42,219 nt of DNA from a virus (IMGVR_UViG_3300047201_000036:1-42219); one strand, 5' to 3'. Shown: positions 770-19,160, numbered from the stretch's first letter. Notes: generated by a model not told the origin, from the sequence alone. Program-made: numbers and translations.

Positions 770-1201
770 ATGAAAAAGCTGATTTTCTTCTTTCTGCTTA
801 TGGCTTTTGCCTTTGTGGTAAATGCGCAGGATTATACTATCACCTCAGTTGGTGTAACCAGGATAGTAACTAATGATACCCTGACAGACACCGGAAGCGA
901 TACTGTTACTATTCTATTAAAGCCGCCAAAGGATTATGTTTATAATCTTTCGTGCCAGTTTATCGGTGCTGCTGTTTCAGGGACATTAAGTGTAACCGCA
1001 ACCTATTCTCAAAGTCTTGACGGTACTAACTTTGAATTGATTGCGGCCGATACTGAGATAACATCTGCAAACCTTGTAGAGAACTGGACTGATGAAGCAG
1101 GATTTTATGGCAGATACCTTAGGATCATTTATGCAGGAGCCGGAACAGAGGTTTGTAAGGTGAACGCTTATTTATATGCTGTACCATTTAAAAACTATTA
1201 G
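770..1201 (+). CDS. Small exported beta-sandwich protein, possible capsid decoration protein
   Basis: 143 residues. Residues 1-20 form a classic signal peptide: Lys-Lys, a run of Phe/Leu, then N-A-Q with likely cleavage around residue 19-20. The mature part is rich in Thr, Val and Ser and looks all-beta, ending in a G-R-Y-L-R-I-I-Y segment. A good ribosome binding site (AAGGAGAG) lies just upstream of the ATG at 770. It sits directly after the capsid gene, where HK97-like phages often encode decoration proteins, and the next gene is a paralogue. The signal peptide is odd for a virion protein. Function is not recognised; decoration or a secreted surface protein are both possible. Confidence 0.7.
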   Translation: MKKLIFFFLLMAFAFVVNAQDYTITSVGVTRIVTNDTLTDTGSDTVTILLKPPKDYVYNLSCQFIGAAVSGTLSVTATYSQSLDGTNFELIAADTEITSANLVENWTDEAGFYGRYLRIIYAGAGTEVCKVNAYLYAVPFKNY

Positions 1202-1202
1202 G

Positions 1203-1640
1203 ATGAAAAGATTATTTCTATTATGCTTATTTGTAGTAGCAGCTATTACTTTAAGCGCTCAGAACTATACCTTAGCAGCTCCAGGAGTTACTAATATCGT
1301 AGATGATACGGTTGCAAGTGCAGGAACAGATAGTCGTTATGTTCTTTTGAAGATACCCGATGGAAACGTCTGGAATTTTCAGCTTATGTTGTATTATACC
1401 CAGCTCTCAGGAACATCTGAGGTCTGGATTGATACCTATTGTTCAAATGACGGCTCAAACTGGGAATTAGCCGTTGCAAGGGCAGCGGGTGACACATTAA
1501 AGAACGGAAATACGGTTTGTCTGCATGAAGACAACGACGGATTTCCTTATCGCTATTTTAAAGTATTATACACAGCTAAAACAGCAACACAATCAACAAG
1601 GGTTAGGGGTTACTTATACTTAACGCCTTATCGCTATTAA
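1203..1640 (+). CDS. Small exported beta-sandwich protein, paralogue of the preceding gene
   Basis: 145 residues from the ATG at 1203, one base after the preceding stop. An upstream in-frame start at 1176 is unlikely because it would bury the signal peptide. Residues 1-20 are a signal peptide ending L-S-A-Q. The mature part aligns with the previous protein: a G-V-T-x-I-V start, a D-G-S/T-N-W/F-E-L centre, and R-Y-F-K-V-L-Y-T followed by G-Y-L-Y. The pair arose by tandem duplication. A strong terminator follows directly, so this gene ends the head transcript. The role is unknown, probably the same as its twin. Confidence 0.7.
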   Translation: MKRLFLLCLFVVAAITLSAQNYTLAAPGVTNIVDDTVASAGTDSRYVLLKIPDGNVWNFQLMLYYTQLSGTSEVWIDTYCSNDGSNWELAVARAAGDTLKNGNTVCLHEDNDGFPYRYFKVLYTAKTATQSTRVRGYLYLTPYRY

Positions 1641-1648
1641 TCATAGAT

Positions 1649-1674
1649 GGGGTGGGGAAACCCGCCCCTCTTTT
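1649..1674 (+). terminator. Intrinsic terminator after the capsid operon
   Basis: GGGGTGGG (1649-1656) pairs with CCCGCCCC (1661-1668), with one G-U pair, across a GAAA loop. TCTTTT follows directly. This is a compact GNRA-capped rho-independent terminator nine bases after the stop of the upstream gene. Confidence 0.85.
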
Positions 1675-1694
1675 AAAAAAAGGAGAAGAAACAA

Positions 1695-2009
1695 ATGAAA
1701 AACATTAAAAAGATTCAGGTCGAAAAAGAGACCAAGACAATTAAGCACCCCGTAACGGGAAAAACTCTCTATAATGAGAGTATTGAATTTCAGGAACCGG
1801 TCAGGGTCAGGTTTACACATGGGGTCTTTGCGGGAGTTGTTCAGGATCTTCCTGAGCTGAGGGCAAAGAGACTTATTAAAGCCAAAAAGGCAGAACTCGC
1901 TAAAGATGCGGATATTACCCCCTCTCATGAAATTCAAAGATTGTCAACAGCATTAGCCCCGAAAAAAGATGAAACAGGAAAAGACGAAAAGAAAAACAAA
2001 GGAGCATAA
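1695..2009 (+). CDS. Hypothetical protein with charged C-terminus
   Basis: 104 residues, with a clear AAAGGAG ribosome binding site 8-10 bases before the ATG at 1695. The N-terminal 70 residues alternate charged and beta-prone stretches. The last 25 residues are almost all Lys, Glu, Asp and Ala (ending DEKKNKGA) and are probably disordered. It lies between the capsid and connector genes, so a head-completion or decoration role is possible, but no family is recognised. Confidence 0.7.
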   Translation: MKNIKKIQVEKETKTIKHPVTGKTLYNESIEFQEPVRVRFTHGVFAGVVQDLPELRAKRLIKAKKAELAKDADITPSHEIQRLSTALAPKKDETGKDEKKNKGA

Positions 2010-2029
2010 GTTTAAAAGAAAGACTAAAG

Positions 2030-2638
2030 ATGCCATTACAACTGAAACTGATAGAGGATGTAACGACAGAGATATTCACACGCGATGCAGTGAAGATTTA
2101 TCTGAGGAACACTTTTTCGGCCGGTACTGACTCTAATCTTATGATGGAAGATACTCTTCTTGACCTCTTACAAAAGTCAGCAAGAGAAGTATGTGAGGAT
2201 TTCTGCTGGTCTACATTCCAGGCAAAGACATGGGATTTCTGGACTGATGAGATTCCATCGAATAATACAATCTATTTACCCAGGGGGCCTCATAAAAGTA
2301 TTACCGGAGTGTATAGACAGGATTCAGAAGAGGTTGAAACTGAACTAACACTTAACTCCGGTTATTACAAGCGGGGACTGACAGACTTCGCGATTGTGAT
2401 AAATACAGGGGTATCAGTCCCCATCATTGTAACCAACGCAAGCGGAGAGGGCATTTACCCGGTAAGAGTGCGCTTTGTAGCAGGATATTCTATTATCCCC
2501 TCTAATGTGAAAGAGGCTATTTTGCAAACAATAAAACATAATTTTCTTCAAAGGGAAAAACTGGCATTGTCGGGATTTTCTGAACTGCCAGGATCAGCAA
2601 GGGCACTATTAAAAAGTGAAACCCGGAGGACAATATAA
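2030..2638 (+). CDS. Head-tail connector (adaptor) protein, gp6-like
   Basis: 202 residues. The helical N-terminal half (D-A-V-K-I-Y-L-R near residue 20, then D-T-L-L-D-L-L-Q-K-S-A-R-E-V-C-E) and the beta insertion with L-P-R-G-P-H-K-S-I-T-G-V match the HK97 gp6 / SPP1 gp15 adaptor family. These proteins form a ring under the portal vertex and start the neck. The C-terminus (V-K-E-A-I-L-Q-T-I-K-H-N) is the usual final helix. Its position after the capsid gene is standard. Its partner neck genes (gp10-like, terminator) are displaced about 8 kb downstream, at 10789. Confidence 0.8.
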   Translation: MPLQLKLIEDVTTEIFTRDAVKIYLRNTFSAGTDSNLMMEDTLLDLLQKSAREVCEDFCWSTFQAKTWDFWTDEIPSNNTIYLPRGPHKSITGVYRQDSEEVETELTLNSGYYKRGLTDFAIVINTGVSVPIIVTNASGEGIYPVRVRFVAGYSIIPSNVKEAILQTIKHNFLQREKLALSGFSELPGSARALLKSETRRTI

Positions 2639-2994
2639 TGGCAGCAGTAGATAAATACAGGGGTCAGGACATAACATTAACCATTACCTGTTCAGTATCC
2701 ATAGATGATCTTGCAGAACTCTATGTATTTCTAATTCATAGGGAAAGCAGGACGGTTGCTGCTCAGTTTAATAAAGCAGGAACAGGAACATATACTGCCC
2801 TCACGAAAGTAACTGAATACATTTATAAAGCAATTTGGGGACATTCAGATACAGCAGATGCAGATTTGGGAATGTATGATATGGATGTTGCTGTAATACA
2901 AACCGATGCAGATTATGAAGATTCGGAAAAGCATACAAAGAAAATTGAGGAAATATTTGATCTGAAAGAATCTTATTCAAAGATTATAATTTAA
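2638..2994 (+). CDS. Hypothetical beta-rich structural protein
   Basis: 118 residues. The start overlaps the stop of the connector gene (TAATG). The pattern Y-R-G-Q-D-I-T-L-T-I-T-C near the start, followed by alternating beta strands, resembles the small Ig-like adaptor domains found before fibre modules, such as baseplate upper-protein N-termini. That resemblance is loose. The gene ends one base into the next start (TTAATGG), so it is co-translated with the fibre gene at 2994. Confidence 0.65.
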   Translation: MAAVDKYRGQDITLTITCSVSIDDLAELYVFLIHRESRTVAAQFNKAGTGTYTALTKVTEYIYKAIWGHSDTADADLGMYDMDVAVIQTDADYEDSEKHTKKIEEIFDLKESYSKIII

Positions 2995-3632
2995 TGGCTG
3001 ACATTAATATAACAGTAAGCATTGATGCCGCGATAAGCATAACTATTGATACCAATGCGGTACCCTCTCTTATTACACAGGCGGAGGCGGAGGCGGGTAC
3101 GAGTACGGGTGAGCGAGTAGTAACTGCTGAAAGATTATCCCAGGCCATTGCAGCCTTAGAATCGGCAGATGCAACCCCTGGCGGTTCGGATACTCAATTA
3201 CAGTTTAATGACGGGGGTGTGTTTGGTGCTGAAGCTTCATTGACTTATACTAAAGCAACTAATAAACTTTGTTTAGGAACATCAGGCAATAGTTTACTCG
3301 AAGAGCACAGAGGAAAGATTTACCAGATAATGCAGGATGTAGGTAGTAAAAATGGTACTTATCAAATAAATGTTGGTGGATATAATGACACTATTGTAAC
3401 AGCTGATGGGAATCTTATTTTGCAGATGACAGGTCATGCAGCTGGAATGAGTGGAGTGATTATTCTTAAAATTACAGGTGCAGGTGGTTACACGATTTCA
3501 CTTGATCCGACATATTTTACAACCGAACTTAGCGGAAGTGATGATATTGATACGGTAACGGGGAAAAAGAATTTCATCAGTTATTATTATGACGGGACAT
3601 TTCTTTATTATACAAACACAAAAGAGGCATGA
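2994..3632 (+). CDS. Tail-fibre-like structural protein
   Basis: 212 residues. Residues 28-52 carry T-Q-A-E-A-E-A-G-T-S-T-G-E-R-V-V-T-A-E, an element seen in many phage fibre proteins. Around residue 63 comes G-G-S-D-T-Q-L-Q-F-N-D-G-G, a linker common in virion fibre and head-fibre proteins. The rest is beta-rich. The DNA near 3080 is locally GC-rich (GGCGGAGGCGGAGG), unlike its neighbours, which suggests an exchanged module. It overlaps the start of the next gene by four bases. Receptor binding or host attachment is likely; the target is unknown. Confidence 0.7.
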   Translation: MADINITVSIDAAISITIDTNAVPSLITQAEAEAGTSTGERVVTAERLSQAIAALESADATPGGSDTQLQFNDGGVFGAEASLTYTKATNKLCLGTSGNSLLEEHRGKIYQIMQDVGSKNGTYQINVGGYNDTIVTADGNLILQMTGHAAGMSGVIILKITGAGGYTISLDPTYFTTELSGSDDIDTVTGKKNFISYYYDGTFLYYTNTKEA

Positions 3633-4423
3633 GTTTTCCGCATAAAATGGGATTTATGAAGCCGAAAGGACCCGGTTATTGTGCCGAATACTTAGCAGTC
3701 TATAACGCATTCCCCAACAAACCCTCTGCCGCTGATGCAGTTATTCAGAATGCCAAAATGCTGGCTATTGTTGCCAGTGGTCGTTATGCAAAAGGTGAAA
3801 GGCATTGGGAGTTTTCAGCTCATTCAAATTCGGCAGGAGAATCACAACTTGACTGGATTGACCCGGTTAATCATTTACCCGTTACGAATGTGAATGGCTG
3901 TGCGTGGGATGCTTATAACGGGTTCACGGGAAACAATGCAGGAAGCAAATATTTAAGAAGCAATTTCATTCCCTCAGTTGATGGGACTTTAATCGGACAA
4001 AATAATATTTGTGCGATAATAGGGATAGGGACTGATTTATTAGAAGCAACTGGAGATTTTGGAAATACTGCGGGAACTCCTTATTTGCGAATATATACAA
4101 GATTTACGGGCAATTTAACTTATACGAGATGTAATTGCTCAACGAATAAAAGTGTTGCTTGCACAAATTCAAAAGCATATTTTGCAATATCAAGAGGGGT
4201 TGCGGCAAATTACGATTCATATAGAAATTTAGTTAAAACAAATTTAATAGATGAGTCAACTGGATTGCCGGATGGTGAAATATTAATAGGTTATGTAAAT
4301 ATTGCTTGCAATAAACAACTTCGTTGCGCTGAAATTCTCTCTTATCTCACAGAAGGCGAAGTTCAATCAGCCATTGGGGATGAAAATATTTATTTAACCA
4401 ATTATAGTACAAACTTATACTAA
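3629..4423 (+). CDS. LamG-like phage surface/fibre protein
   Basis: 264 residues, starting in an ATGA overlap. The pattern Y-L-A-V-Y-N-A-F-P-N-K-P-S-A-A-D-A, then 'GESQLDWIDPVNHLPVTNVNG', then Y-N-G-F-T-G-N-N-A-G-S-K-Y-L, is a family I recognise from phages of the Bacteroidota. It looks like a concanavalin-type beta-sandwich. It lacks a signal peptide, unlike several neighbours. It probably sits on a fibre or the virion surface and binds glycans. The exact role is inferred from context. Confidence 0.65.
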   Translation: MSFPHKMGFMKPKGPGYCAEYLAVYNAFPNKPSAADAVIQNAKMLAIVASGRYAKGERHWEFSAHSNSAGESQLDWIDPVNHLPVTNVNGCAWDAYNGFTGNNAGSKYLRSNFIPSVDGTLIGQNNICAIIGIGTDLLEATGDFGNTAGTPYLRIYTRFTGNLTYTRCNCSTNKSVACTNSKAYFAISRGVAANYDSYRNLVKTNLIDESTGLPDGEILIGYVNIACNKQLRCAEILSYLTEGEVQSAIGDENIYLTNYSTNLY

Positions 4424-4966
4424 ATGAAAGCATATAATATCACGGGAAAGCAATTTCAATACATAAAGACAATCAATGCCTTCGATGCCATTTGTCCAGT
4501 TCTCCTGAAAGATGGAAGGTGGGTTATCTCAAAAGATACTGTTGATTATTTAGAGCAGCATTACATAACCGATTTTGCCATATCCGGCGCAACGGAGGAC
4601 TTAAAGGATTCATTGCAGATATTACTTGGTGCTGTCAGGAAATTCCCTGAGATTAATTATGAAGCAAAAGACCTGCATCCGGCTCAACAGGTTCGCAGAT
4701 TTGAAGCAGTTCTTGAGGAAAAGAAAATAGTTGAAATATTCCTTAAAGAATCAATCGGAACCTCCCTGAATGAATCAATGACGGTTCAGGATGTATATGA
4801 TTTTGTTGAAGCCAAGCCCTCACAGCAGTATAATCCCATTGCGCAGAAAGAATTTATAAAGCTGGAATTGGAATCCATAATGGGAACGGATTATAATGAG
4901 AACTTAACTGTCAAACAGGTACTGGATAAGATTGCTTTAAAAGCAGAACAAATAATAGAACAATAA
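4424..4966 (+). CDS. Hypothetical protein in the fibre block
   Basis: 180 residues, with the ATG directly after the preceding stop. Mostly helical: an N-terminal mixed domain, then helices with E-E-K-K-I-V-E-I-F-L-K. There are two related motifs, S-I-G-T-S-L-N-E-S-M-T-V-Q-D-V near residue 110 and S-I-M-G-T-D-Y-N-E-N-L-T-V-K-Q-V near residue 151. This internal duplication suggests two copies of a small helical unit. No family is recognised. It may be a chaperone or linker for the flanking fibre proteins. Confidence 0.65.
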   Translation: MKAYNITGKQFQYIKTINAFDAICPVLLKDGRWVISKDTVDYLEQHYITDFAISGATEDLKDSLQILLGAVRKFPEINYEAKDLHPAQQVRRFEAVLEEKKIVEIFLKESIGTSLNESMTVQDVYDFVEAKPSQQYNPIAQKEFIKLELESIMGTDYNENLTVKQVLDKIALKAEQIIEQ

Positions 4967-4977
4967 ATAAAAATAAG

Positions 4978-5370
4978 ATGAAAAAGTTAATAATTGTTTT
5001 ACTGGCACTGATGCCATTTATGGCTTTCGGGCAGAGAGTTTATACTCATGGAAGTATCTCAGCCACTGCAGGGCGTGGAGTTTCGACTACCACAAATATA
5101 AAGATGTTTACCGGATCGGGGTGGAGCCTTGAACTGAGGTTTAAAAAGTTCGATGCGGATTCAACGGTCATCGATCTTGGACAATGTGCAGACCCAGATA
5201 GTCTTATCTTCAACCGGATAGATGATTCGAGGATTCCATATAACATGGTATCTGATAGTTCGGTGGTATTCCAGGGAGATAATTTTCTTTGCCGTTATTT
5301 AAGGATTAAACTGACAACTTACGGCGTAACATCCGGAAAGAAGTGTTACTATACTATTACAAAAGAATAA
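4978..5370 (+). CDS. Small exported beta-protein, distant relative of the proteins at 770 and 1203
   Basis: 130 residues. Signal peptide at residues 1-19 (Lys-Lys, hydrophobic core, F-G-Q). The mature part is all-beta and ends with C-R-Y-L-R-I-K-L-T-T-Y-G, matching the R-Y-L/F-R/K-I/V segment of the two exported proteins after the capsid gene. This suggests a third, diverged family member. It is followed one base later by another exported protein. Function unknown. Confidence 0.65.
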   Translation: MKKLIIVLLALMPFMAFGQRVYTHGSISATAGRGVSTTTNIKMFTGSGWSLELRFKKFDADSTVIDLGQCADPDSLIFNRIDDSRIPYNMVSDSSVVFQGDNFLCRYLRIKLTTYGVTSGKKCYYTITKE

Positions 5371-5371
5371 G

Positions 5372-6490
5372 ATGAAAAAGATATTATTTCTTTTTGCCCT
5401 CTTGCCAGTATTGGCTTATGGACAAAAGACCGTTAATTTGAACAAGGATTATATTGACAGTACCTGGGTAATGGTCACACTTGGCAGGATAAATGCTGAT
5501 TATGCTGCTAATACTGCTGCTGTTGACGGTACAAGGTATTGGGATTTCTTAACAACAGGAACGGTTGACCCGGCCAGTTTAGCAGAGGTCAACTCAGGTT
5601 ATTTTGCCTACGATAAGACAGCCGGGAGCAACGGAGTGTATACTATTAACGCTCTTGAAGGAGTGGCCCGGAGTTCTTATGCTGATGAAGCTGGTACATT
5701 CAGGGGAGTCTATGGAAGGATATATATAGCCGCCGGCACAACCGCTACTATGCGCACGGGCGTAGGCGGGGAGTTTTCTGCAAGAGCAGGATACTCAGGT
5801 GGGACTAATTGCGTAGCCGAAAATGGAACAGCTTTTGTCGGTGCAAGAATATGGATGGCTCCTTACTTTACTTCAGGTTCATTGACAAACATTACCAACT
5901 TTCACGGACTATGGATATTCAATGAACATACTTCCAATAAAGTAACAGACGGGATATTCATAAATGATGCCGGTGGGACGGGTGGATGGACTTATGGGAT
6001 AAGTATGAATGGAGCTACAATAGGAACGGCAGATTTAAGATTACATAACGGCGCATTGTTAAATAATATAAGAGCTGCAAATCTAATGGTCACAGAAGAT
6101 ACGGTTGAAGTTGCCGGGGTTTTGCTTGCAACAGGGACACTTTCAGGGGCGATAAGCGTGACTTTGGATACCGACCCAGCAATAGTTCTTACAGTCGCAA
6201 TGTGTAAGAACAGGGTTAGAATTAATAATGATGCGGACGCAATAGATTATTCACTTCCAACAGCATCAGCGGGGCTTATCGTTCTTTTTTACGATGTAGC
6301 CGGTGGAGTTATAACTGTTGACGCGGCCAGTGGCGATGCTATCCTTTTAAACGGAGTTAGTGTAGGTACAGCCGATGCAATAGACTCACCCGGAGCGATA
6401 GGAAACTTTATCTGTTTAATGGCTATTGATGATACCCGGTGGGTGTCACTTGGACAAAGTGGTACATGGATCGACGGCGGTGCTGATTAA
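5372..6490 (+). CDS. Exported fibre-type structural protein
   Basis: 372 residues. Residues 1-18 are a signal peptide (M-K-K-I-L-F-L-F..A-Y-G-Q). The middle is a long beta-rich, Gly/Ala/Thr-rich region. The last 110 residues carry a module I recognise from many phage fibre and virion proteins: G-A-I-S-V-T-L, then V-I-T-V-D-A-A-S-G-D-A-I-L-L-N-G, D-S-P-G-A-I-G, and W-V-S-L-G-Q-S-G-T-W ending D-G-G-A-D. That module argues for a virion fibre, while the N-terminus argues for export. Confidence 0.7.
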   Translation: MKKILFLFALLPVLAYGQKTVNLNKDYIDSTWVMVTLGRINADYAANTAAVDGTRYWDFLTTGTVDPASLAEVNSGYFAYDKTAGSNGVYTINALEGVARSSYADEAGTFRGVYGRIYIAAGTTATMRTGVGGEFSARAGYSGGTNCVAENGTAFVGARIWMAPYFTSGSLTNITNFHGLWIFNEHTSNKVTDGIFINDAGGTGGWTYGISMNGATIGTADLRLHNGALLNNIRAANLMVTEDTVEVAGVLLATGTLSGAISVTLDTDPAIVLTVAMCKNRVRINNDADAIDYSLPTASAGLIVLFYDVAGGVITVDAASGDAILLNGVSVGTADAIDSPGAIGNFICLMAIDDTRWVSLGQSGTWIDGGAD

Positions 6491-6499
6491 ACTAAGAAT

Positions 6500-9097
6500 A
6501 TGAAAAGATTACTATTATATCTTTTATTACTGATTCCCCTTAACGTGTTTCCCCAAGGGTTATTTGTTCCCGCTGGAGGGATAACTAATCTCGACACAAC
6601 GGATTATCCAGGTGATTATTTTGTCGATCCTAATCTGGGCAATGATGCTAATTCGGGAACTTCTTACGATCAACCTTGGAAAACTATCGCTAAAGTCAAC
6701 GGATTCACCTTTGCCCCAATGGACACTATCTCTTTTAGGAAAGAAGGTGCTTGGCGTGAAACCCTTACCGTCCCTCATGATTCACTTACATTTATGAGTT
6801 ATGGAACGGGGAATAAACCGAAGATATTAGGGAGTGAACAGGCTTTAAATTTTGCAGATTGTGGAGGCAATGTCTGGAAGTCTGCAACGTCTTTACTTGA
6901 TCCTTATAATATTGGTGCTTCTGACATGGAGATATGGTTTGAAGAACCTGACGATTCGATAAAATGGGGAACACATCAAACAGATACGGCAAGTTTAACG
7001 GCTGAATATCATTGGACATGGTTGGCGAATTATATTTATGTATATGCTATTACCGATCCCGATACGAGATATTCCGTCGTTGAATGCGGACAGAGATATT
7101 CTACTATTGATTTAAATAGTAAACAAGATATTGAAATTAATAGTTTGGATTTATTTTATAGTGTTGCCGGAATTGATGAAGATTACCCAACAGAAGATTT
7201 AATAGGATTGACTATTAGAAATTGCGAGATTGGATATCTGGGCGGATGGACGGGATGGGGATACGGAATCCATGCTGTTTATAATAATTCTTTATTTGAA
7301 GATAATGAAATTCATGATTGTGGTAGACGCGGAATATCTCTTGTTAATTATGGGACTCACGATATCACAAATATAGTAGTTCAAGATAACACAATCTATA
7401 ATTGTTATCATACAACAGGAGTTGATATTGAAACGGGAACAGAGGCGGATGATACAGGTGATATTGATAGTATAATTATAAGAAATAATTATTTTTTCCA
7501 TGATTCACGAAATTATAATACAAGAAGTGGTGGAGTTTTCCTTCAAGAAAATACTGGTAGTACGGGGAAAATCACGAGTACTTATATTTATAATAATATT
7601 TTCGTTTGTTCAAATGGCAACTGGGTTGGGGCAGAAAATGTAGATAGCGTTTACGTATATAACAATATATTTTATGGATTAAATCAAGTTTTATCAGATA
7701 ATTTATTTCATATAGCAATTCAAGATCCTGTTGATGATTGCTTGGAATGGAAAATAAAGAATAATATTTTTTATAACAATAGAGATTTGAATTGGGGGAC
7801 TGCCATTATTTTAGAAAATACACAAGATTATACTGAAATTGATGCAGATTATAATTTATACTACACCTCTTATTCGGCAAGACCAATAATTTATGCGAAT
7901 AGTACTGCTTATACTATGGCTCAATGGTCTACGATGAAAATGGGTTTAAATTGGGAGGCAAATAGCCCAATACCATCTGATCTTCTTTTATATACGGATA
8001 GTTTTAATGTCCGTTATGGATCTTCGGCAATAGACTCAGGTTTGACGATTGCCCTCATTGCAGACGATTATTATGATATAGCAAGGGGAACACCGCCGAC
8101 AATAGGGGCCGTTGAAATATTTACTTACGGCGATACTATTATAAACTTCGAGGCAAGTTCAACTAAAAAAGATACCATTCTGATTGCAACATTAGGTTAT
8201 ATCTCACAACCGGATTCATTAAGATTAGTTGCCGATATGGGCAATGATTCAATAGGAATTGGAGGAGGGACCTTGCTTTATGCCGGACATGATACTACGA
8301 TAATAGAAGGACAGTATAAATACGAACCCTTAACTGATACAATTGTAAGAGTAGAATTATGGCAGGAATATTTTGGAGTTTGGTCATATTATGCAAACCA
8401 TGATACGACTTTTGTTGATTCAACGGCTTCCAATTCAACTCTTTTAACCGGACTTATTTCTTATTATAAATTAGATGAAACCAGTGGAAATACAATAGAT
8501 ATTGCACCTACATCCCCTCATGACGGAACCGTAACGGGAGCAACTCAGAATGTAACAGGTAAAATTAATAAGGCATATTCTTTTGACGGGACTAACGATT
8601 ATATAGATTTTGGGAGTGTTGCCGATTTTAGATTTACAACCGCAATGTCTATTTCATTTTGGGTTACAAGTGATGCTTATTACGGGTTGATTATTGGGAA
8701 TCATAATGAAGATGATTATCAGGGTTGGCAGATAGATTGTAATGGTTCAGGAGGTGTAGTAAGATTTACCTGTAATACTTCCGGTGCTGATGCATCAATT
8801 ACCTCAACTAATGTTGTTTATGGTGTTGGATGGGTTCATATTGTAGCTACTTATGATGGGGCACATTTAAAATTATATTACAATGGAGTTTCCGATGCTA
8901 CTGAGGTTGATTTTACGGCAACAATAGATTATGGTTCAGTATCTCCAAATACTATCATAGGCGTGAACGACCAGTTGGGTAATGATTTCACCGGGGATAT
9001 AGATGGAGTTGGATTATGGAATAAAACATTGATACCAACAGAGGTAACGGAATTATATACTAAAGAAAATTCGGGGGCAACATTCCCTTGGAAATAA
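6500..9097 (+). CDS. Exported beta-helix and LamG protein, possible glycan-degrading tailspike
   Basis: 865 residues, the longest gene. Signal peptide at residues 1-19 (ending V-F-P-Q). From residue 41 the pattern Y-F-V-D-P-N-L-G-N-D-A-N-S-G-T, then Q-P-W-K-T-I, marks the entry of a right-handed beta-helix, as in pectate-lyase-like enzymes. Repeated N-N-x-I-F/Y strands fill residues 210-480. A middle beta domain follows. The C-terminus from about residue 655 (L-I-S-Y-Y-K-L-D-E-T-S-G-N, A-Y-S-F-D-G-T-N-D-Y-I-D) is a LamG/concanavalin domain. It could be a tailspike depolymerase or a secreted surface protein. Catalytic residues cannot be assigned by eye. Confidence 0.75.
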   Translation: MKRLLLYLLLLIPLNVFPQGLFVPAGGITNLDTTDYPGDYFVDPNLGNDANSGTSYDQPWKTIAKVNGFTFAPMDTISFRKEGAWRETLTVPHDSLTFMSYGTGNKPKILGSEQALNFADCGGNVWKSATSLLDPYNIGASDMEIWFEEPDDSIKWGTHQTDTASLTAEYHWTWLANYIYVYAITDPDTRYSVVECGQRYSTIDLNSKQDIEINSLDLFYSVAGIDEDYPTEDLIGLTIRNCEIGYLGGWTGWGYGIHAVYNNSLFEDNEIHDCGRRGISLVNYGTHDITNIVVQDNTIYNCYHTTGVDIETGTEADDTGDIDSIIIRNNYFFHDSRNYNTRSGGVFLQENTGSTGKITSTYIYNNIFVCSNGNWVGAENVDSVYVYNNIFYGLNQVLSDNLFHIAIQDPVDDCLEWKIKNNIFYNNRDLNWGTAIILENTQDYTEIDADYNLYYTSYSARPIIYANSTAYTMAQWSTMKMGLNWEANSPIPSDLLLYTDSFNVRYGSSAIDSGLTIALIADDYYDIARGTPPTIGAVEIFTYGDTIINFEASSTKKDTILIATLGYISQPDSLRLVADMGNDSIGIGGGTLLYAGHDTTIIEGQYKYEPLTDTIVRVELWQEYFGVWSYYANHDTTFVDSTASNSTLLTGLISYYKLDETSGNTIDIAPTSPHDGTVTGATQNVTGKINKAYSFDGTNDYIDFGSVADFRFTTAMSISFWVTSDAYYGLIIGNHNEDDYQGWQIDCNGSGGVVRFTCNTSGADASITSTNVVYGVGWVHIVATYDGAHLKLYYNGVSDATEVDFTATIDYGSVSPNTIIGVNDQLGNDFTGDIDGVGLWNKTLIPTEVTELYTKENSGATFPWK

Positions 9098-10342: not shown

Positions 10343-10788
10343 AAACAATCCTGCTCATACCACGTCTTGCGATGTTCCTTGAAGCTATGAAGTTTTACGG
10401 ACTGACAGAGATTGCAGGAAAAGAAAACAATCCACAGATACTTCAGTTCTTTAGTGATGTTGGGAAAACATGGGTACAGGATGACGAAACGGCCTGGTGT
10501 TCAGCTTTTATTAACTGGCTGGCATGGACTTGTAATTGTGAGCATTCAGGTAAACTTGATGCACGCAGCTGGCTGAATACCGGACGGGAAATAAAATATC
10601 CTCAACTTGGCAATGTAGTTATCTTTTGGCGTGAAAGCAGAGATTCATGGAAAGGACATGTAGGATTATTCATTGCACAAAATGATTCGGTTATCTATTG
10701 TTTTGGAGGCAATCAGGATAATCAGGTAAACATAAAACCTTATCCCAGAGGTCAATTACTTGGATATAGGGAATTGAATTATATATAA
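10339..10788 (+). CDS. Endolysin, TIGR02594-type NlpC/P60-CHAP-like peptidase
   Basis: 149 residues. The family pattern is clear: E-I-A-G-K-E-N-N-P-Q-I-L-Q-F-F, W-V-Q-D-D-E-T-A-W-C-S-A-F-I-N-W (catalytic Cys54), A-R-S-W-L, G-H-V-G-L-F-I (His107), and G-G-N-Q near residue 125 as the third polar residue. Proteins of this family cut peptide bonds in peptidoglycan. There is no signal peptide, so it needs a holin, and candidates lie directly upstream. The length is normal for the family. Confidence 0.85.
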   Translation: MKTILLIPRLAMFLEAMKFYGLTEIAGKENNPQILQFFSDVGKTWVQDDETAWCSAFINWLAWTCNCEHSGKLDARSWLNTGREIKYPQLGNVVIFWRESRDSWKGHVGLFIAQNDSVIYCFGGNQDNQVNIKPYPRGQLLGYRELNYI

Positions 10789-11139
10789 ATGGAACTAAAA
10801 TTTCACATACCAGAATCAGAATTTCAATATTTCAGGCAAAGGATAAAACTTGCAGATAAGATCGTCCAGGATAGGGCGCGCAAACAAGTTGAGACCTCTG
10901 CTTATAGGATTAATTTTTATGCAAAGAGGGCTTGTCCTGTTGTAACAGGTAGGCTAAGGGGTTCGATAAGGGTTGACTTTACACCAGATCATCTTAATGC
11001 TTCAATAGGATCGAATGTAAGATACGGCCCTCACGCGCACGAGCACGCAAGAGATCCGGACAGGAGATATTTTTTAGAGAGGGCTTTTAAAATGGAGTTA
11101 CCAAAATTCATTTCAAACATGAAATTACTATTACAATGA
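10789..11139 (+). CDS. HK97 gp10-like neck / head-closure protein
   Basis: 116 residues, ATG directly after the endolysin stop. An N-terminal helix with repeated Arg/Lys leads to A-C-P-V-V-T-G-R-L-R-G-S-I, the signature of the HK97-gp10 family, then a beta region with S-N-V-R-Y-G-P-H-A-H. These proteins close the neck between connector and tail. It overlaps the next gene by four bases. Confidence 0.85.
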   Translation: MELKFHIPESEFQYFRQRIKLADKIVQDRARKQVETSAYRINFYAKRACPVVTGRLRGSIRVDFTPDHLNASIGSNVRYGPHAHEHARDPDRRYFLERAFKMELPKFISNMKLLLQ

Positions 11140-11585
11140 GCGAACTGAGTGCATCATATAATCTAAGAAATGCCTATTATACTTTAATGAATGGGTTAGT
11201 GGTAGTATCAACTGAAAAAGTTCCGGTTTACCGATATGCAGGACTTGGAAAAGATAATACAAGGGTTGATATTCTCAGGATTGTAGAGGGATTGCCAGAA
11301 GCAGATGCCTGCGATTCTTACAATAAAGAAGTAATTACCGAAATCGATATTGTTTGTAACCTTAGTATATTAAGGCAGAGTGAAGGACAGAAGAAAGTCG
11401 ATGACGTGGCAAATGCTGTTATAAGTTTACTTGTTCCCTCATTAGGATATACAATGACAGTAACGGACTTTGATAATGACGTTCATCATTTTTTAAGAAG
11501 CGAAGAAATAACAGAGATTTTTGAAGGACAGCTTTATTTACATAAGATATTAACTTATAGGGATATATTAACACAAACAACATAA
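11136..11585 (+). CDS. Tail terminator / tail completion protein
   Basis: 149 residues. The mixed alpha/beta layout (N-terminal helix with A-Y-Y-T-L-M-N-G, central strands with I-T-E-I-D-I-V, helix D-V-A-N-A-V-I-S-L-L, then strands ending H-K-I-L-T-Y) fits the tail-terminator family of DUF3168/gp17 type. It lies between the gp10-like gene and the tail-tube genes, the normal place. The assignment rests more on position than on a diagnostic motif. Confidence 0.7.
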   Translation: MSELSASYNLRNAYYTLMNGLVVVSTEKVPVYRYAGLGKDNTRVDILRIVEGLPEADACDSYNKEVITEIDIVCNLSILRQSEGQKKVDDVANAVISLLVPSLGYTMTVTDFDNDVHHFLRSEEITEIFEGQLYLHKILTYRDILTQTT

Positions 11586-11589
11586 TACA

Positions 11590-12006
11590 ATGGGTAAAAT
11601 TAGAGGTTTATTAATGATCGTAAAGATCGAAACAGTAGTATTGACAGGGAGGCTTAATGCCAATCTGAACATTACTAAAGACATGATCGATGCAACAAGT
11701 GTCGATTCAGCAGGGATCAAGGCTTATGAGTCGGGAGAGTACGGAGCAACTTTTGACTTTAATTCGCTTTATGATCCAAGTGGGACAATGTCGTTTTCGG
11801 AGATTCTGGCAGCCTTAAAGCTGACAACTTCAGCGACTATTTATTTTGGTGAAACGGCCTGGTCAACAACTGGAAGTTCTTATTTTTCAGCAGAAGCACA
11901 TTTTAATGCTGCTTCGCTAAGTGCTGATAAGAATGACGTTGCTAAGGTGGCCGGATCACTTACAATTACCGGGGATATTTCAGAAACAGCTTTAACTTCA
12001 TCTTAA
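11590..12006 (+). CDS. Major tail tube protein, copy 1
   Basis: 138 residues. K-I-R-G-L-L-M-I-V-K-I, then G-R-L-N-A-N-L-N-I-T-K-D-M-I-D-A-T-S-x-D-S-A-G, and the late A-K-V-A-G-S-L-T-I-T-G-D-I are the pattern of TP901-1-like major tail proteins, which polymerise around the tape measure. The following gene is a close paralogue. Five bases separate the two genes. Confidence 0.85.
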   Translation: MGKIRGLLMIVKIETVVLTGRLNANLNITKDMIDATSVDSAGIKAYESGEYGATFDFNSLYDPSGTMSFSEILAALKLTTSATIYFGETAWSTTGSSYFSAEAHFNAASLSADKNDVAKVAGSLTITGDISETALTSS

Positions 12007-12011
12007 ATACT

Positions 12012-12419
12012 ATGGCAAAAATTAGAGGACTTTTAATGATTGTTAAGATCGGTGGGACGGCTCTCACCGGACAGCTTAACGCAACACTGAATGCTGTAAA
12101 GGATATGATTGACGCTACGAGTGCCGATTCAGCAGGGGTAAAGGCTTACGAAGCAGGAGAATATGGATTTACGTTTGATTTCAACTCCCTGTATGATCCT
12201 GCTGGCAGTATGTCCTTTGGCGAAATTCTTACAGCACTAAAGTCGACAACAGCAACTACGATCTACTTTGGTGGGATCGTTACAAATGATCCTTATTTCT
12301 CTGCTTCGGCTCATTTTAACAGTGCGAGTTTAAGTGCTGACAAGAATGATGTGGCAAAAGTATCAGGATCACTTACGATAACGGGTGATGTCACCGAAGG
12401 ATCGGCTACTACGGTTTAA
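12012..12419 (+). CDS. Major tail tube protein, copy 2
   Basis: 135 residues. It shares the start (K-I-R-G-L-L-M-I-V-K-I), the centre (K-D-M-I-D-A-T-S-A-D-S-A-G) and the end (K-V-S-G-S-L-T-I-T-G-D-V) with copy 1. It differs by a shortened loop before Y-F-S-A-S-A-H-F-N. Copies have drifted at the DNA level, so the duplication is not recent. One copy may form the tube and the other a tip, collar or decorated variant. Confidence 0.85.
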   Translation: MAKIRGLLMIVKIGGTALTGQLNATLNAVKDMIDATSADSAGVKAYEAGEYGFTFDFNSLYDPAGSMSFGEILTALKSTTATTIYFGGIVTNDPYFSASAHFNSASLSADKNDVAKVSGSLTITGDVTEGSATTV

Positions 12420-12437
12420 AATTAACGGGGAGGAAAT

Positions 12438-13111: not shown

Positions 13112-14832
13112 TGGATGCAGGAAAATTAGTTGCATATCTGGGACTCAATACCCAAGAGTTTGATGCTAAATTGGGATCATCTGTGGGTAGGGTTCGAGAA
13201 TTTGGAGCTCAGGCTATTGGGGCTATTGCGTTAGCATCAGGTATTATTGCTACTGCAATAATAGGCTGGGGTAAGGCATTTGTAGAAGCCTATAATAAAT
13301 CGGCAGAGGCAGTAGCAAAATTAACTACAGCTCTTGACGGTCAAAAAACAGTAACGGAAAGTTTGGTAAAATATGCAGGAGAACTTCAGGATAAAACACT
13401 CTTTGATGATGAAACTACAATACGGGCAATGTCTCTTGTAGCTGCATTTACAAAAGAAGAAGAAAAAATAAAGACCCTCTTACCTATCATTCAGGATTTA
13501 GCAACAGCCAAGAATATGGATCTGGCTTCAGCTACTGATATAGTAACAAAGAGCATCTTTACCAATGTAAATGCACTTGGCAGGTATATTGGAAAAATGG
13601 AATTATCTTCTGACACTAATCAGAGATTTATTACAATCACAGAGCGTTTAAATGAATTATACAAAGGGCAGGCAGAGGCAGCACGGCAGGCAAATATCAG
13701 CGCTATCCCATTAAAAGATACTATCAGTGATTTAATGGAAGTATTCGGTAAAGCAATCGTTGAAGGTACGGCATTAAGGAGAGTTCTGGATAATCTTAAT
13801 GAATCATTAAAAAAGATCAAGTCAGGTTTACCGCATAATGAAGCCATTGAATTTATAGAGGATTTTAAAAAGTTTGAACTTGCAGGGAAAGATGTAACAG
13901 AACAGATCGCATTACTCACCAAGGCACAAAGTGAGTATAATGAAAAGATGCAACAATACATGGAGTTTGACGTCTGGACGAAGGGGCAAGTTAAAACCTA
14001 CGGCATGATGGTTGATTTGTATAAAGAGATTGCAAGTGCATTAGGTCAATATGCAAAGGAACTCAGGGAGGCGGCAGAAGTTGAAGAAATCACCCCTGGA
14101 TTGATTGATAATATTAATACAAAAATAAAAGACCTACAAGATACTCTTGGAGGACTTACTTCTAAATCAGATATTAAACAAACTCTTATTGCGATATATG
14201 ATTATCAACAGGAATTAAAAGATCTTACTGATCTGACTCCTGAAATTGAAGCACTTACAACCGTTCAGAGTAAAAATGCTCTTGTCGTAGTTGATGGATT
14301 AAGACAGGTTGATACCTCGCTTAAGAAAAATTCTGCGGGTTGGGCAAGTTACAAAGAGAATATCTGGGAAACTATTCAGCAAACGGAGAATTTCTCTGAA
14401 ATTGCCGTTCCGCTGATAACTAATGCCGTTGAATCTATTGCTGAAAGTATTGCAGGTTTAATATCGCAAACCGATAGTATAGAAGGATTTTTTAGAAATA
14501 TAGCCTTAATGGTAGCTGAAGTTGCGATCCAGATAGGAAAGATAATAGCTGCTATGGGTGCGGCTCTATTGATCTCTAAAACTACAAGGAAAGAGGGTAT
14601 AAAACTAATTGCTGAAAGTGGTGCATTAATGACAGCCGGTTATATAGCGAAGGGATATGTTAACAAGGGAAGTAGTTCATATTCATCAGTCAGTCCGGGA
14701 AATTCCAGTTACGGATCACCAAATTCCCTGAATGCAACGAGGATAGCAGTAGCAGTTACCGGCGAACTGGACGGAAGAAAATTGTCTATTGTTGGTGTAA
14801 GGGGAACTAAAATGTTATCTCAGGTTACATGA
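13111..14832 (+). CDS. Tail tape measure protein
   Basis: 573 residues from the ATG at 13111, which overlaps the stop of the T frame; an earlier in-frame TTG at 13096 is less likely. The opening A-G-K-L-V-A-Y-L-G-L-N-T-Q-E-F-D-A-K-L is typical of tape measures. Then come long helices, and two hydrophobic segments near residues 440-510 (S-I-A-E-S-I-A-G-L-I and I-I-A-A-M-G-A-A-L-L-I). It sets tail length and is ejected with the DNA. At about 1.5 angstrom per residue this predicts a tail near 85 nm. Confidence 0.85.
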   Translation: MDAGKLVAYLGLNTQEFDAKLGSSVGRVREFGAQAIGAIALASGIIATAIIGWGKAFVEAYNKSAEAVAKLTTALDGQKTVTESLVKYAGELQDKTLFDDETTIRAMSLVAAFTKEEEKIKTLLPIIQDLATAKNMDLASATDIVTKSIFTNVNALGRYIGKMELSSDTNQRFITITERLNELYKGQAEAARQANISAIPLKDTISDLMEVFGKAIVEGTALRRVLDNLNESLKKIKSGLPHNEAIEFIEDFKKFELAGKDVTEQIALLTKAQSEYNEKMQQYMEFDVWTKGQVKTYGMMVDLYKEIASALGQYAKELREAAEVEEITPGLIDNINTKIKDLQDTLGGLTSKSDIKQTLIAIYDYQQELKDLTDLTPEIEALTTVQSKNALVVVDGLRQVDTSLKKNSAGWASYKENIWETIQQTENFSEIAVPLITNAVESIAESIAGLISQTDSIEGFFRNIALMVAEVAIQIGKIIAAMGAALLISKTTRKEGIKLIAESGALMTAGYIAKGYVNKGSSSYSSVSPGNSSYGSPNSLNATRIAVAVTGELDGRKLSIVGVRGTKMLSQVT

Positions 14833-16733
14833 GTTATGGCACTAAATATCAATTATCTTATACTGATAATTCTTCTCAGGCTGTTATTATTGACCTTAAA
14901 AAAGATGGTTACTCAGGTGCAGTAACAGCACTGATTGGAGCAGGGGAACCGCTTGTCATCAACCACGACAACTCTTCTGATTTTCTTTTTGAACCTATTC
15001 TTGGAACCTGGGTTTCACTAAGGATAATTGTTAAGACAGTTTTTGGTTATGGCGATCTTTTTACTACAGACGCGCGTGAGTGGCAGATGATAGTATCAAT
15101 AGCTGGTGCTACTTATTTCACGGGATATATTATGCCATTTCTCTTTAATCATGACTATAAAAGCGAACCTTATGTTTTAGAGATCGTTGCAAGCGATCAA
15201 CTGGGATTATTGAGAAAAATAAGCTACCCTGATTTTATCGGTGGAGAAAGCAAGATGCCGTTAGAAATTATTCATGCCGTCCTCTCATTTACGGGGCTTT
15301 CTCTTGATATGAAAGAGGGAATAAATGTCTATGAGGATTCAATGACAACCGGGGCTGCATATTCTCCGCTTAATCAATGTTATATACCACTTGAAAGTTA
15401 TGAAGACGAAGAGGGGAATCCCTGGGATTGTTATTCTGTTCTAAAAGATATTCTTTTAAGATATGGCGCTGTGATTCGCCAGGTTAAGAATCAATGGCAC
15501 ATCTGGAGACCTTCAGAATCTACGGCAACTTATAATAGAAGATACTGGGTAAACAGGCCGGAGGGTGGAGGTTATTTTTATTATACATCAACCGAAGCCC
15601 ACGACCCAACGGTTGTAACAACGGCAAGTGGGGTATCACGTGCAACCCTTGTCAGGACTCTTACCAACGGAACCCTTTCAATGATGGAGGCATGGAGGGA
15701 TTATACTTTAGTACAAAAATATAATCTTAGGAAATCATTCTTGTATAATTCAGGTTTCATGGATTGGATAGATGCTAATAATCCTTATTATTGGAATAAG
15801 ACGGCAAATGCAGAAATATGCAGGATGAAAAAGGGGGTATGTTATTTTGCTGATTGGCCAACCTTTGGGGAATATATTTACCAGACTATTGACAATATTG
15901 AAGATACATCCGGCCAGGTTATAAGATTCAGATTGAAATTTCAGTCATTTGTTCCCGATGATGAATCAGCAGTTCTTTCTGTTCAGATAAGGGTAACTCA
16001 CGAAACTACAATATACTACTGGGATTTTACAAATAATACATGGATAGCTCATCCTATGATAACTAATCTTGATGTTTCGTGTGCTGAAGGTGTTTGGGAA
16101 CACGACTTTGAACTTGTTTCTGATGATCTTGCTGGGATCACCGGGGAACTTGAGATTCGTATTTATGCACTTGTAAACATACTCTCCTCAAATAGTTGGA
16201 TATATGTAAATAATTGCGAATTACAAATATTAAAAAAAGTTGGTACGGGAACGATTGAATATGATGAGGATTTAACAGAACTTGTCCCGATAAATGCAGA
16301 CAATAGTTTAGAGGGTGAAGAGGTATCAGTCCTGACCGACGAACTGCCAGATGTTGCAAACATTTCTCACATCTGGGGTGCTGGCATATTTAGGGATTCA
16401 GCACTACTGACTAAAACAACCCACTGGCATGACTCAGGATCAACAGAAGAGTTAACACTAATTGAACTTTTAAAAAGTCTTATTGCAAAACAATACGGTG
16501 CTTCTGCTGAGATGATTTCTGTTAATATAATGACAAAACTTCTTTCGGGTGATGATACCATTCAACTTGCGCAGCACAGCAATAAAAAATATTTTCCCCG
16601 CAGAATTGAATGGAGTCAAAAAGCCGGGATAATGAAATACGAAATGATTGAGATTATTTGTGTAACGGGATTCTTGCTTCAGGAAACAGGTGATTATATC
16701 TTACAGGAAACAGGTGATAAAATTATAATATAA
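14829..16733 (+). CDS. Distal tail / tail-tip protein
   Basis: 634 residues, starting in an ATGA overlap with the tape measure. Position directly after the tape measure and a beta-rich N-terminal 130 residues with Y-F-T-G-Y-I-M-P and V-L-E-I-V-A-S-D fit a distal-tail / hub protein of phages of the Bacteroidota. The middle (I-L-L-R-Y-G-A-V-I-R-Q..Q-W-H-I-W) recalls tail-associated proteins. A later segment looks like a carbohydrate-binding beta-sandwich. The end has the short repeat L-Q-E-T-G-D-Y-I-L-Q-E-T-G-D. No lytic domain is seen. Confidence 0.75.
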   Translation: MSYGTKYQLSYTDNSSQAVIIDLKKDGYSGAVTALIGAGEPLVINHDNSSDFLFEPILGTWVSLRIIVKTVFGYGDLFTTDAREWQMIVSIAGATYFTGYIMPFLFNHDYKSEPYVLEIVASDQLGLLRKISYPDFIGGESKMPLEIIHAVLSFTGLSLDMKEGINVYEDSMTTGAAYSPLNQCYIPLESYEDEEGNPWDCYSVLKDILLRYGAVIRQVKNQWHIWRPSESTATYNRRYWVNRPEGGGYFYYTSTEAHDPTVVTTASGVSRATLVRTLTNGTLSMMEAWRDYTLVQKYNLRKSFLYNSGFMDWIDANNPYYWNKTANAEICRMKKGVCYFADWPTFGEYIYQTIDNIEDTSGQVIRFRLKFQSFVPDDESAVLSVQIRVTHETTIYYWDFTNNTWIAHPMITNLDVSCAEGVWEHDFELVSDDLAGITGELEIRIYALVNILSSNSWIYVNNCELQILKKVGTGTIEYDEDLTELVPINADNSLEGEEVSVLTDELPDVANISHIWGAGIFRDSALLTKTTHWHDSGSTEELTLIELLKSLIAKQYGASAEMISVNIMTKLLSGDDTIQLAQHSNKKYFPRRIEWSQKAGIMKYEMIEIICVTGFLLQETGDYILQETGDKIII

Positions 16734-17197
16734 TGTTTATAAATCTCACATTGGAAGATATTGAGAACATACTTACTGGATATGGATTTGAAATTTATAT
16801 GAATGGCCCCTTTAAATATGCCAGAAAAGATACTATTGATTTCTCTTTATTAAAGGCTTTTAAAGAACATTTAAAACAGAAACTTTCCTTATCTGATACT
16901 GGCGGAAATCATTCTCATGACAATAAGACAATTCTGGATGCAATAGAGCAAAGTTTTACCACTACCTTAAAATCAACTTATGATGGGTATGCCTCAGGGA
17001 AAGAGCCAGCAAATACAAATATACAGACTCACGTTACTTCTGCACACGCTCCAAGCAATGCACAAAAGAACAGCGATATTACTAAAGCAGAAATAGAAGC
17101 GAAATTAACAGGTGAAATCAGCACACACACACACGCAGGAGGCGGAGGCGGATTAACTCAACCTCAAGTTATGTCACGAATATCTTTAAGTATATGA
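16733..17197 (+). CDS. Short tail-fibre-like protein
   Basis: 154 residues, overlapping the previous stop by one base. Residues 60-64 have H-S-H-D-N-K, then a helix, Y-D-G-Y-A, H-V-T-S-A-H-A-P-S-N-A, and T-H-T-H-A-G-G-G-G-G. Such His-Ser-His and A-H-A-P-S-N-A elements recur in phage fibre and baseplate proteins and can bind metal in trimeric fibres. It is probably a linker joining the tail tip to the fibre proteins downstream. Confidence 0.7.
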   Translation: MFINLTLEDIENILTGYGFEIYMNGPFKYARKDTIDFSLLKAFKEHLKQKLSLSDTGGNHSHDNKTILDAIEQSFTTTLKSTYDGYASGKEPANTNIQTHVTSAHAPSNAQKNSDITKAEIEAKLTGEISTHTHAGGGGGLTQPQVMSRISLSI

Positions 17198-18093
17198 ACA
17201 TATTAGATACAGTAAATAAAAGTATAAGGGCTTACATGGGGGCCGTGGCCGCTACAAATCAACCAATATTTGTTTGCAGTTATGCAGATCATACGTCCTC
17301 AACTTTCGTACCAGGTGCAAATGACGGTACTCTTAATGGGGTAACTCCAGTAGTTTTAGTTGCTGCACCGGTTGGTAGTACACAAAGACAAGTAAAATAT
17401 ATCAACATCTGGAATAATGATACGGTTTCTCAATCGGTTACGGTTGAACTTTTAAGTACATCAGCACAAAGGACTCTTTTTAGAGCCACACTCGATCCGG
17501 GAAGTGCATTAACTTTTACGGAAGGCATAGGATGGGTAGTATTTAATAATCAGGGTGTTCCACGTTCGGGAGGTATTGTAGTAAATACAGGTAGGCTTAT
17601 GGCGCCTCCGATAGTTGATGTGACGGCAAACATAACAGGTGTTAAAGCTATCACTACTACACAAACGGCACTTGTCTATGTTGGTGTAGCCGGCAGAGCT
17701 GCTTCATCTGTTACTTTAAGATATAATGTGACAGTAGCGGCGGTGACTATTACGTGGGCGGAGATAGGAATTTTCAAAGGCATCCCGCTTGTGGCCGCAA
17801 ACCCTTCACTTTCACTATTGGGGTGGGCGGATATGGCAGGAATTGTGAATAGTACCGGAAGAAAAAGTACAAATATTACACTCACATCGAACATATCCAT
17901 TGGGGATGAACTTTGGATCGGAATTGGATGCCAGGCTACCACAACAGTAACTATAAGAGCCTACTCGCTTGTTGAGGATTGCCAGATAGGAACAGTTGTA
18001 ATGATGGTGGCCAGACCTTCAACGGTTGCCAGTCCTGCTTCGTGGACTGTAAATAACGCGGTTGCTCCCTGGATGTATTGTTATTTAAATTAA
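17194..18093 (+). CDS. Hypothetical tail-tip/fibre protein
   Basis: 299 residues, all-beta by composition, starting four bases before the previous stop. A central stretch (V-K-Y-I-N-I-W-N-N-D-T-V-S-Q-S-V-T-V) followed by P-G-S-A-L-T-F-T-E-G-I-G-W resembles small beta-sandwich domains in phage structural proteins. It has no signal peptide. It lies between the linker-like protein and the S74 fibre, so it is likely part of the same receptor-binding apparatus. Confidence 0.6.
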   Translation: MNILDTVNKSIRAYMGAVAATNQPIFVCSYADHTSSTFVPGANDGTLNGVTPVVLVAAPVGSTQRQVKYINIWNNDTVSQSVTVELLSTSAQRTLFRATLDPGSALTFTEGIGWVVFNNQGVPRSGGIVVNTGRLMAPPIVDVTANITGVKAITTTQTALVYVGVAGRAASSVTLRYNVTVAAVTITWAEIGIFKGIPLVAANPSLSLLGWADMAGIVNSTGRKSTNITLTSNISIGDELWIGIGCQATTTVTIRAYSLVEDCQIGTVVMMVARPSTVASPASWTVNNAVAPWMYCYLN

Positions 18094-18098
18094 ATATT

Positions 18099-19160
18099 AT
18101 GAAAAAATTAATTCTATTTATTGCGTTATTTGGAATAATTCTAAATAGCACAGCGCAGGACAAAAAGATCAGTGAACTCAATTTAGCATCAACTCCTGTT
18201 GGTGATAGTGCTCTTTATATTGCAGTTCAAAGTGCCACAACTAAGAAACAATACTTCATCGATTTGCAAAAAAGTATGTGGTACGGAGGTGCTGCCACAG
18301 CAACGGGAATAGGAACGAGCTCTCTTAATAGTAATACCGGAGCGTATAATACTGCTATGGGTTATCAAAGTCTTTATACAAATTCATCGGCAACAAGCAG
18401 TACGGCATTTGGATATAAAAGTCTTTACACTAATAATGGAACCTGCAATTCGGCCTTTGGCTATGGAGCGTTAGAAGATAATACTTCAGGTACTTATCAA
18501 ACCGCATTTGGTGTAAATGCCTTGGCTAATAGTACGATAGGAGATTATAACACGGCAGTTGGGGCCAGTGCCCTTGTAAATGTAACACTTGGAAGTATGA
18601 ATACAGCCGTTGGATATAGGGCGGGTTATTCGAATAGTGTTACAGGTTGTGTTTATTTGGGATTTGAAGCAGGATATAATAATACCGAAGGAAGTGTTTT
18701 ATTTATTGATAATAGTAATGATGCAACTCCACTGATCTGGGGTGACTTCACTGCAGATTCAGTTATCATAAACGGAGACTTGCGTGCTACCGGGTACGCG
18801 GGTGGAGCAACCGCATGGACAAATGAAAGTGACTCTACGCAAAAAAAGAATATTGTAACTATTGATAATGCACTAATAAAAGTATCAAGATTAAGGGGCG
18901 TGGAATTTGAATGGAAAGACGGAAGGGAACCAGGACAACGGATAGGATTCTTAGCACAAGAGGTTAAAGAAGTAATGCCTGAAGTTGTAAGTGGTGAAGA
19001 GGGTTCAATGTCTATTCAATATGCCCCTGTCGTGGCTTTACTTACTCAAGCTATTCAGGAACAGCAAAAGCATATTCAATGGCTTTATGTTTTTTGTGGT
19101 GCTCTTTCATTATTTTCTATAATCTTATTAGTATTATTTGTTATTGGAAAAAATGAATAA
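18099..19160 (+). CDS. Exported fibre with YadA-like head repeats, S74 autocleavage domain and C-terminal membrane segment
   Basis: 353 residues from the ATG at 18099, so that the signal peptide (residues 1-20, ending S-T-A-Q) is at the N-terminus. From residue 80 there are repeats of the type N-T-A-x-G-Y-x-S/A-L, as in the trimeric head of YadA-like adhesins. Residues 243-300 form a peptidase S74 / intramolecular chaperone domain: S-D-S-T-Q-K with Ser244 and Lys249 as the likely catalytic dyad, then V-E-F-E-W and R-I-G-F-L-A-Q-E-V. A hydrophobic segment (residues 328-349) ends the protein. The combination with a signal peptide and a membrane tail is unusual for a phage fibre. Confidence 0.8.
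   Translation: MKKLILFIALFGIILNSTAQDKKISELNLASTPVGDSALYIAVQSATTKKQYFIDLQKSMWYGGAATATGIGTSSLNSNTGAYNTAMGYQSLYTNSSATSSTAFGYKSLYTNNGTCNSAFGYGALEDNTSGTYQTAFGVNALANSTIGDYNTAVGASALVNVTLGSMNTAVGYRAGYSNSVTGCVYLGFEAGYNNTEGSVLFIDNSNDATPLIWGDFTADSVIINGDLRATGYAGGATAWTNESDSTQKKNIVTIDNALIKVSRLRGVEFEWKDGREPGQRIGFLAQEVKEVMPEVVSGEEGSMSIQYAPVVALLTQAIQEQQKHIQWLYVFCGALSLFSIILLVLFVIGKNE

Follow-up and report, generated by a model that had tools for sequence, protein, structure and literature searches.

Our findings suggest that Bacteroidota phages export virion-like proteins from the cytoplasm. In the window, by which we mean the whole 42,219-base stretch of DNA that was analysed (an IMG/VR virus record without an end repeat), six genes with putative signal peptides, hereafter called tagged genes, would encode late-operon proteins that are exported by the Sec/signal peptidase I (SPI) route and most likely join virions at lysis, a reading to which we assign a probability of about 0.45. 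In the mechanism that we propose, the tagged genes would be expressed late in infection, along with those for capsid and tail. The host Sec translocase would export their products and SPI would cleave them, and the N-terminal Gln exposed by cleavage would then be converted to pyroglutamate by the host glutaminyl cyclase. The mature parts resemble virion-style modules: small beta-sandwiches encoded after the capsid gene, and fibre, lectin and S74-chaperone proteins. Once exported, these proteins would meet the particles assembled in the cytoplasm only when the envelope ruptures, and their most likely fate at lysis would be to bind to the capsid and the tail, where they would serve as decoration and adhesins. 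A more specific version, in which a subset of the virion components passes through Sec, SPI and glutaminyl cyclase, possibly with O-glycosylation in the periplasm, and is added to finished particles at lysis, we consider rather unlikely.

Joining at lysis is supported by the occurrence of signal peptides above chance, the conserved Gln at +1, the fixed place after the gene of the major capsid protein (MCP), the cement-like fold, and the tagged proteins of Cellulophaga phages that are annotated as virion components. Against it stand the C-terminal hydrophobic helix of the 18099 product, which suits a membrane role, the sub-threshold link to the cement protein Bbp16, and the depletion of a glycosylation motif in the Cellulophaga proteins. 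Assembly of tailed phages is taught as cytoplasmic, and we know of no tailed phage that adds exported proteins after lysis. If true, our proposal would imply that tailed phages can be decorated outside the cytoplasm, a step for which no precedent is known among them, and would bear on host binding, glycan acquisition, and the annotation and expression of structural genes in Bacteroidota phages. The post-capsid tagged family and the tagged, virion-annotated fibres make periplasmic passage and lysis-time addition directly testable.

Signal peptides in the structural region

Essentially all genes of the window lie on the + strand. Since the terminase, portal and capsid genes are of the tailed-phage type, and the terminase is closest to those of Bacteroides phages, we take the host, with high probability, to be a member of the Bacteroidota. 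The record ends fall within the MCP gene: its N-terminal part lies at 41738-42219, ending at the last base, and its C-terminal part at 1-753 (7..753 as a feature, + strand), directly upstream of the gene at 770. Comparison with the related locus L098 suggests that little of the MCP is missing, and that the record is an opened, nearly complete genome.

The initial annotation had assigned host-style signal peptides to six structural-region genes, and this was confirmed, with a clear cleavage site in five of the six and a Pro at -1 in the remaining one, 6500. All six ORFs exist and have an ATG at 770, 1203, 4978, 5372, 6500 and 18099, respectively; the ORF lister also gave longer versions of two of them, starting at 1176 for the 1203 gene and at a TTG at 18078 for the 18099 gene. 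With a home-made scorer based on the Bacteroidota SPI pattern (basic n-region, hydrophobic core, small residues at -3 and -1, Gln at +1), the products of 770, 1203, 4978, 5372 and 18099 scored as "Q-rule" Sec/SPI signal peptides, and no other +1 Gln signal peptide was found on either strand of the window. The N-terminus of the 6500 product, MKRLLLYLLLLIPLNVFP^QGLF, has the layout of the other five, but the Pro at -1 makes its cleavage less certain. Judged from these N-termini, the former five are predicted Sec/SPI substrates with high confidence, and 6500 probably is one. Among the 53 forward ORFs of at least 80 aa in the window, five have a +1 Gln signal peptide, against 0.20 expected from 8 such cases in 2078 forward ORFs of 157 related viral loci (Poisson P 2.5e-6); shuffled N-termini yielded 0.043 per genome.

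All six genes lie on the + strand. Those directly after the MCP gene encode two exported-type proteins, the first (770..1201) with a 19-aa signal peptide (VNA^Q) and a 124-aa predicted beta-sandwich, the second (1203..1640) with a 19-aa signal peptide (LSA^Q) and a 126-aa domain. They are paralogues with 35% identity, and each has an orthologue in the related locus L013 that keeps the signal peptide (68% identity for 770, 74% for 1203). After them, at 1695..2638 (+), come a short Lys/Glu-rich gene and a head-tail connector-type gene, the latter assigned from its position and a match in L013. The gene at 4978..5370 encodes an exported-type protein of 130 aa (AFG^Q), and that at 5372..6490 a fibre-like exported-type protein of 372 aa (AYG^Q). 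Pfam, PHROGs and NCBIfam named no family above threshold for 770, 1203, 4978 or 5372. The 865-aa product of 6500..9097 combines its signal-like N-terminal region (VFP^Q) with a LamG-type lectin domain at the C-terminus. Finally, 18099..19160 encodes a repeat fibre of 353 aa with a signal peptide (STA^Q), an S74 chaperone domain (Peptidase_S74, PF13884, 55.3 bits; Ser-Asp site near residue 244) and a hydrophobic helix at the C-terminus, from about residue 328. The usual S74 fibres are not known to have a signal peptide or a C-terminal helix.

The gaps between the tagged genes and their preceding genes measure 1-16 nt, leaving no space for a promoter of their own, and the description of a phage moron with its own promoter and terminator was rejected on these gaps. 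Beyond the structural region, a Bax-like glucosaminidase of the endolysin type (32325-32828) has a lipoprotein-like or SPI-like N-terminus (ILS^C) and represents a seventh exported-type protein.

Conservation of the tagged genes in relatives

The terminase of L013 is 80% identical to that of the window and its MCP just 31%, yet both post-capsid tagged genes are present. L098, the MCP of which is 60% identical to that of the window, carries four tagged genes arranged as in the window: two after the MCP gene, followed by the counterparts of 4978 and 5372. A third locus, L106, has a tagged gene after the MCP gene plus tagged counterparts of 4978 and 5372; in both loci the 5372 counterparts were assigned from position and N-terminus only. 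The MCP reading frame of L098 is broken by a frameshift (992-2157), which may be an assembly error or real.

For an unbiased test, the MCP alone was used as bait, and 79 relatives were recovered. The forward +1 Gln signal peptides in them all lay 25-49 nt downstream of the MCP match, barring the two extra genes of L106, and a tagged post-MCP gene was present in L106, L163/L164, L166, L167 and L172. In many other relatives, the MCP gene is followed by a short gene and then the connector gene, without a tagged gene, and the tagged gene is therefore an insertion at a fixed place. The arrangement varies in further loci: in L099 a single signal peptide precedes two domains in tandem, and in G001/L094 the tagged gene stands at the contig start and the MCP gene (Phage_capsid) is the last gene at the contig end. 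In L186, a prophage of a Bacteroidota genome with a contractile tail (MCP phrog_267, tail sheath), a 770-type gene directly follows the MCP gene. Hydrophobic segments stand at the start of the MCP of this prophage (L186:8695-9780, - strand), which would fit a head that begins to assemble at the membrane. A 770-type tagged gene also lies directly 3' of the MCP gene in L105, a phage record labelled 'Rhodobacteraceae'. The signal peptide of this gene (OP947161.1, L105:11869-12282) is of the Bacteroidota Q-rule style, and the record may thus carry an incorrect host label.

All homologues found, down to about 25-30% identity, retain the small-x-small^Gln site, among them those recovered with the mature domain or the MCP alone as query. 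When a mature-domain HMM was run against 9516 ORFs, it retrieved tagged members only, until the Bbp16 proteins that had been added for comparison. The 770 family occurred in one of 395 Bacteroidota genomes, and there within a prophage, and S74/repeat proteins related to 18099 were found in 41 of 296, some with Q-rule signal peptides. Viral contigs scanned with single sequences (1203 and the window MCP) gave no matches, nor did tblastn of 1203, 5372 and 6500 against INPHARED. For a second class of post-MCP proteins, class B (L106, L163, L167, L172), homology to the 770 family (14%) or to Bbp16 was considered, and neither was demonstrable.

Fold and glycosylation motif of the exported-type proteins

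The AlphaFold2 model of the 770 product is a confident beta-sandwich (mean pLDDT 80), with a poorly ordered N-terminal helix apart from the domain (pLDDT about 55 over residues 1-20). Fold searches with 770 returned various beta-sandwiches, including CUB, Cry toxin domains, carbohydrate-binding modules (CBMs) and XepA; a CBM/F5-8C assignment was discarded, its matches being marginal. The relative from L166 was likewise modelled as a beta-sandwich (pLDDT 71.5), and its search listed the BPP-1 cement protein 3j4u_H at rank 31 (TM 0.56). The same relative gave the best score with the Bbp16 profile PF21190, 17.9 bits against a cut-off of 27.1; the profile did not match the window 770 protein, and hhalign against Bbp16 gave P 2e-4 and a probability of 46%. 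These comparisons point to a weak resemblance, below family thresholds, of the predicted 770 mature domain to Bbp16, the capsid cement protein of BPP-1. Like Bbp16 and epsilon15 gp8 (PF21190, 3j4u), the 770 protein is a predicted small beta-sandwich encoded immediately 3' of the MCP gene; unlike the 770 family, those proteins lack a signal peptide and belong to phages of Proteobacteria. PBSX XepA and YomS are also late phage beta-sandwich proteins exported during development, but they are encoded in a Bacillus prophage lysis cassette and are reported absent from particles, and only their fold is similar.

The sequence D[S/T][AILMVT] was reportedly described as the Bacteroidota O-glycosylation motif by Fletcher in 2009 and Coyne in 2013. 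Taken together, the mature parts of the tagged proteins in the window and in its relatives contain 70 copies, against 24.9 +/- 4.7 in shuffled sequences and 24 of the reversed motif, in a post hoc count that was prompted by a conserved Asp-Thr column and that includes homologous, hence non-independent, sequences. The tagged proteins of the window alone have 26 copies against 10.0 expected; enrichment was not significant in its non-tagged beta-rich proteins (10 vs 7.9) or in Bbp16 homologues (4 vs 8.9). All 12 members of the 770 family share one invariant copy, and all four class B proteins share another. Among host proteins, the motif is mildly enriched in tagged ones (77 vs 56) and hardly in those without a hydrophobic N-terminus (128 vs 117). 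The enrichment may represent a second export signature of window-type proteins; however, it is suggestive only, because the homologues are not independent and beta-strand geometry could explain the motif instead.

Virion association and competing explanations

The initial annotation had noted that export would conflict with cytoplasmic assembly, and this conflict is real, since tagged fibres of Cellulophaga phages are annotated as virion proteins detected by MS/MS. In three of these phages, nine of the 11 tagged structural-region genes are so annotated in database entries that hold no N-termini: gp091-094 of phi10:1, gp101-103 of phi19:1 and gp25-26 of phi39:1, the signal peptide of phi39:1 gp25 being called only with a relaxed scorer. 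Thus, proteins of isolated phages can have a Q-rule signal peptide and also be detected in virion preparations, although vesicle contamination of the preparations is possible. The tail fibres and 'pectate lyases' concerned (phi10:1 gp091-094 and relatives) are like the window proteins in their Q-rule signal peptides, and it is for the former that virion detection is annotated. They are unlike the window proteins in that their genes close the operon, on its tail side, and in the depletion of the glycosylation motif (7 vs 19.9), so they are perhaps a poor proxy for the window proteins and the fates of the two may differ. We know of no homology between them and 770, 1203 or 4978. No signal peptide was found on fibres of the corresponding head-tail interval in Helsingorvirus (phi18:1 gp52, phi12:1 gp50, phi17:1 gp52).

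The initial annotation had named exported fibres joined after lysis and an envelope role as options, and both keep an appreciable probability here. In the latter, the proteins are exported but act in the envelope or at the surface of the infected cell, outside the virion. There they would mask receptors, which would stop progeny from re-adsorbing to debris or superinfecting, remodel the surface or help lysis. This is a serious possibility, if short of an even chance: the signal peptides are genuine, the LamG and S74/repeat domains are adhesin domains, the 18099 product has its C-terminal helix, the motif is strongly enriched as in exported Bacteroidota glycoproteins, and the fold matches include CBMs and XepA, an exported, non-virion protein. 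The Q-rule genes of Porphyromonas gingivalis phages have also been proposed to act at the outer membrane (PMC10367356). A place in the virion is favoured instead by the close linkage with the MCP gene, by a position and a fold like those of a cement protein, and by the tagged fibres in Cellulophaga virion preparations. The same fixed place directly after the MCP gene, in different capsid lineages, makes it quite improbable that the tagged genes are moron-like cargo, acquired by chance from host secreted-protein genes and without a role in the structural operon. The frequency of 18099-related proteins in Bacteroidota chromosomes, some of them Q-rule-tagged, is what would be expected of such cargo; the lack of promoter space and the single, prophage-borne occurrence of the 770 family in Bacteroidota genomes are not.

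The initial annotation had also raised an assembly role of the hydrophobic N-termini. They would then serve assembly or membrane-tethered morphogenesis rather than export, and be retained or removed by a phage protease. The MCP of prophage L186, with its own hydrophobic start, is in keeping with this, as are MCPs of P. gingivalis phages that have a signal-like N-terminus, for which trimming by the prohead protease has been suggested (PMC10367356). However, small-x-small^Gln is the signature of host signal peptidase, and the N-terminus of the 770 model is poorly ordered and separate from the domain. We therefore consider an assembly role very improbable, and a purely structural function of uncleaved N-termini is disfavoured because every homologue found keeps the site.

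The statement that no described system explains the set needs qualification: in the open-licence papers searched we found no description of the set as a whole, but some of its elements are described. Q-rule SPI substrates of Bacteroidetes are known as host secreted proteins, in a paper that does not mention phage (Bochtler 2018, PMC5837995). They share with the window proteins the basic n-region, hydrophobic core, small residues at -3 and -1 and Gln at +1, and differ in being host proteins and from 6500 in its Pro at -1. Q-rule genes encoded by phages are known from P. gingivalis, with function unknown and outer-membrane effects presumed (Matrishin 2023, PMC10367356); in contrast to our set, the available text of that paper does not mention a post-capsid family, a fold like that of a cement protein or a connection with virions for them. 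Neither a post-capsid tagged family nor signal peptides on Bacteroidota phage virion proteins were found in the open-licence papers searched.

Some further features were observed in the window and in other contigs. A pair of neighbouring tail-tube-like genes (11590-12419) shows 72% identity. In another viral contig, the terminase gene is immediately followed by one that encodes a Q-rule-tagged protein of 482 aa (L043:5068-6516). Immediately 3' of the 18099 fibre gene lies a gene for a glycosyltransferase-domain protein (19153-20529), and L013 has a related glycosyltransferase within its tail region (10541-11416).
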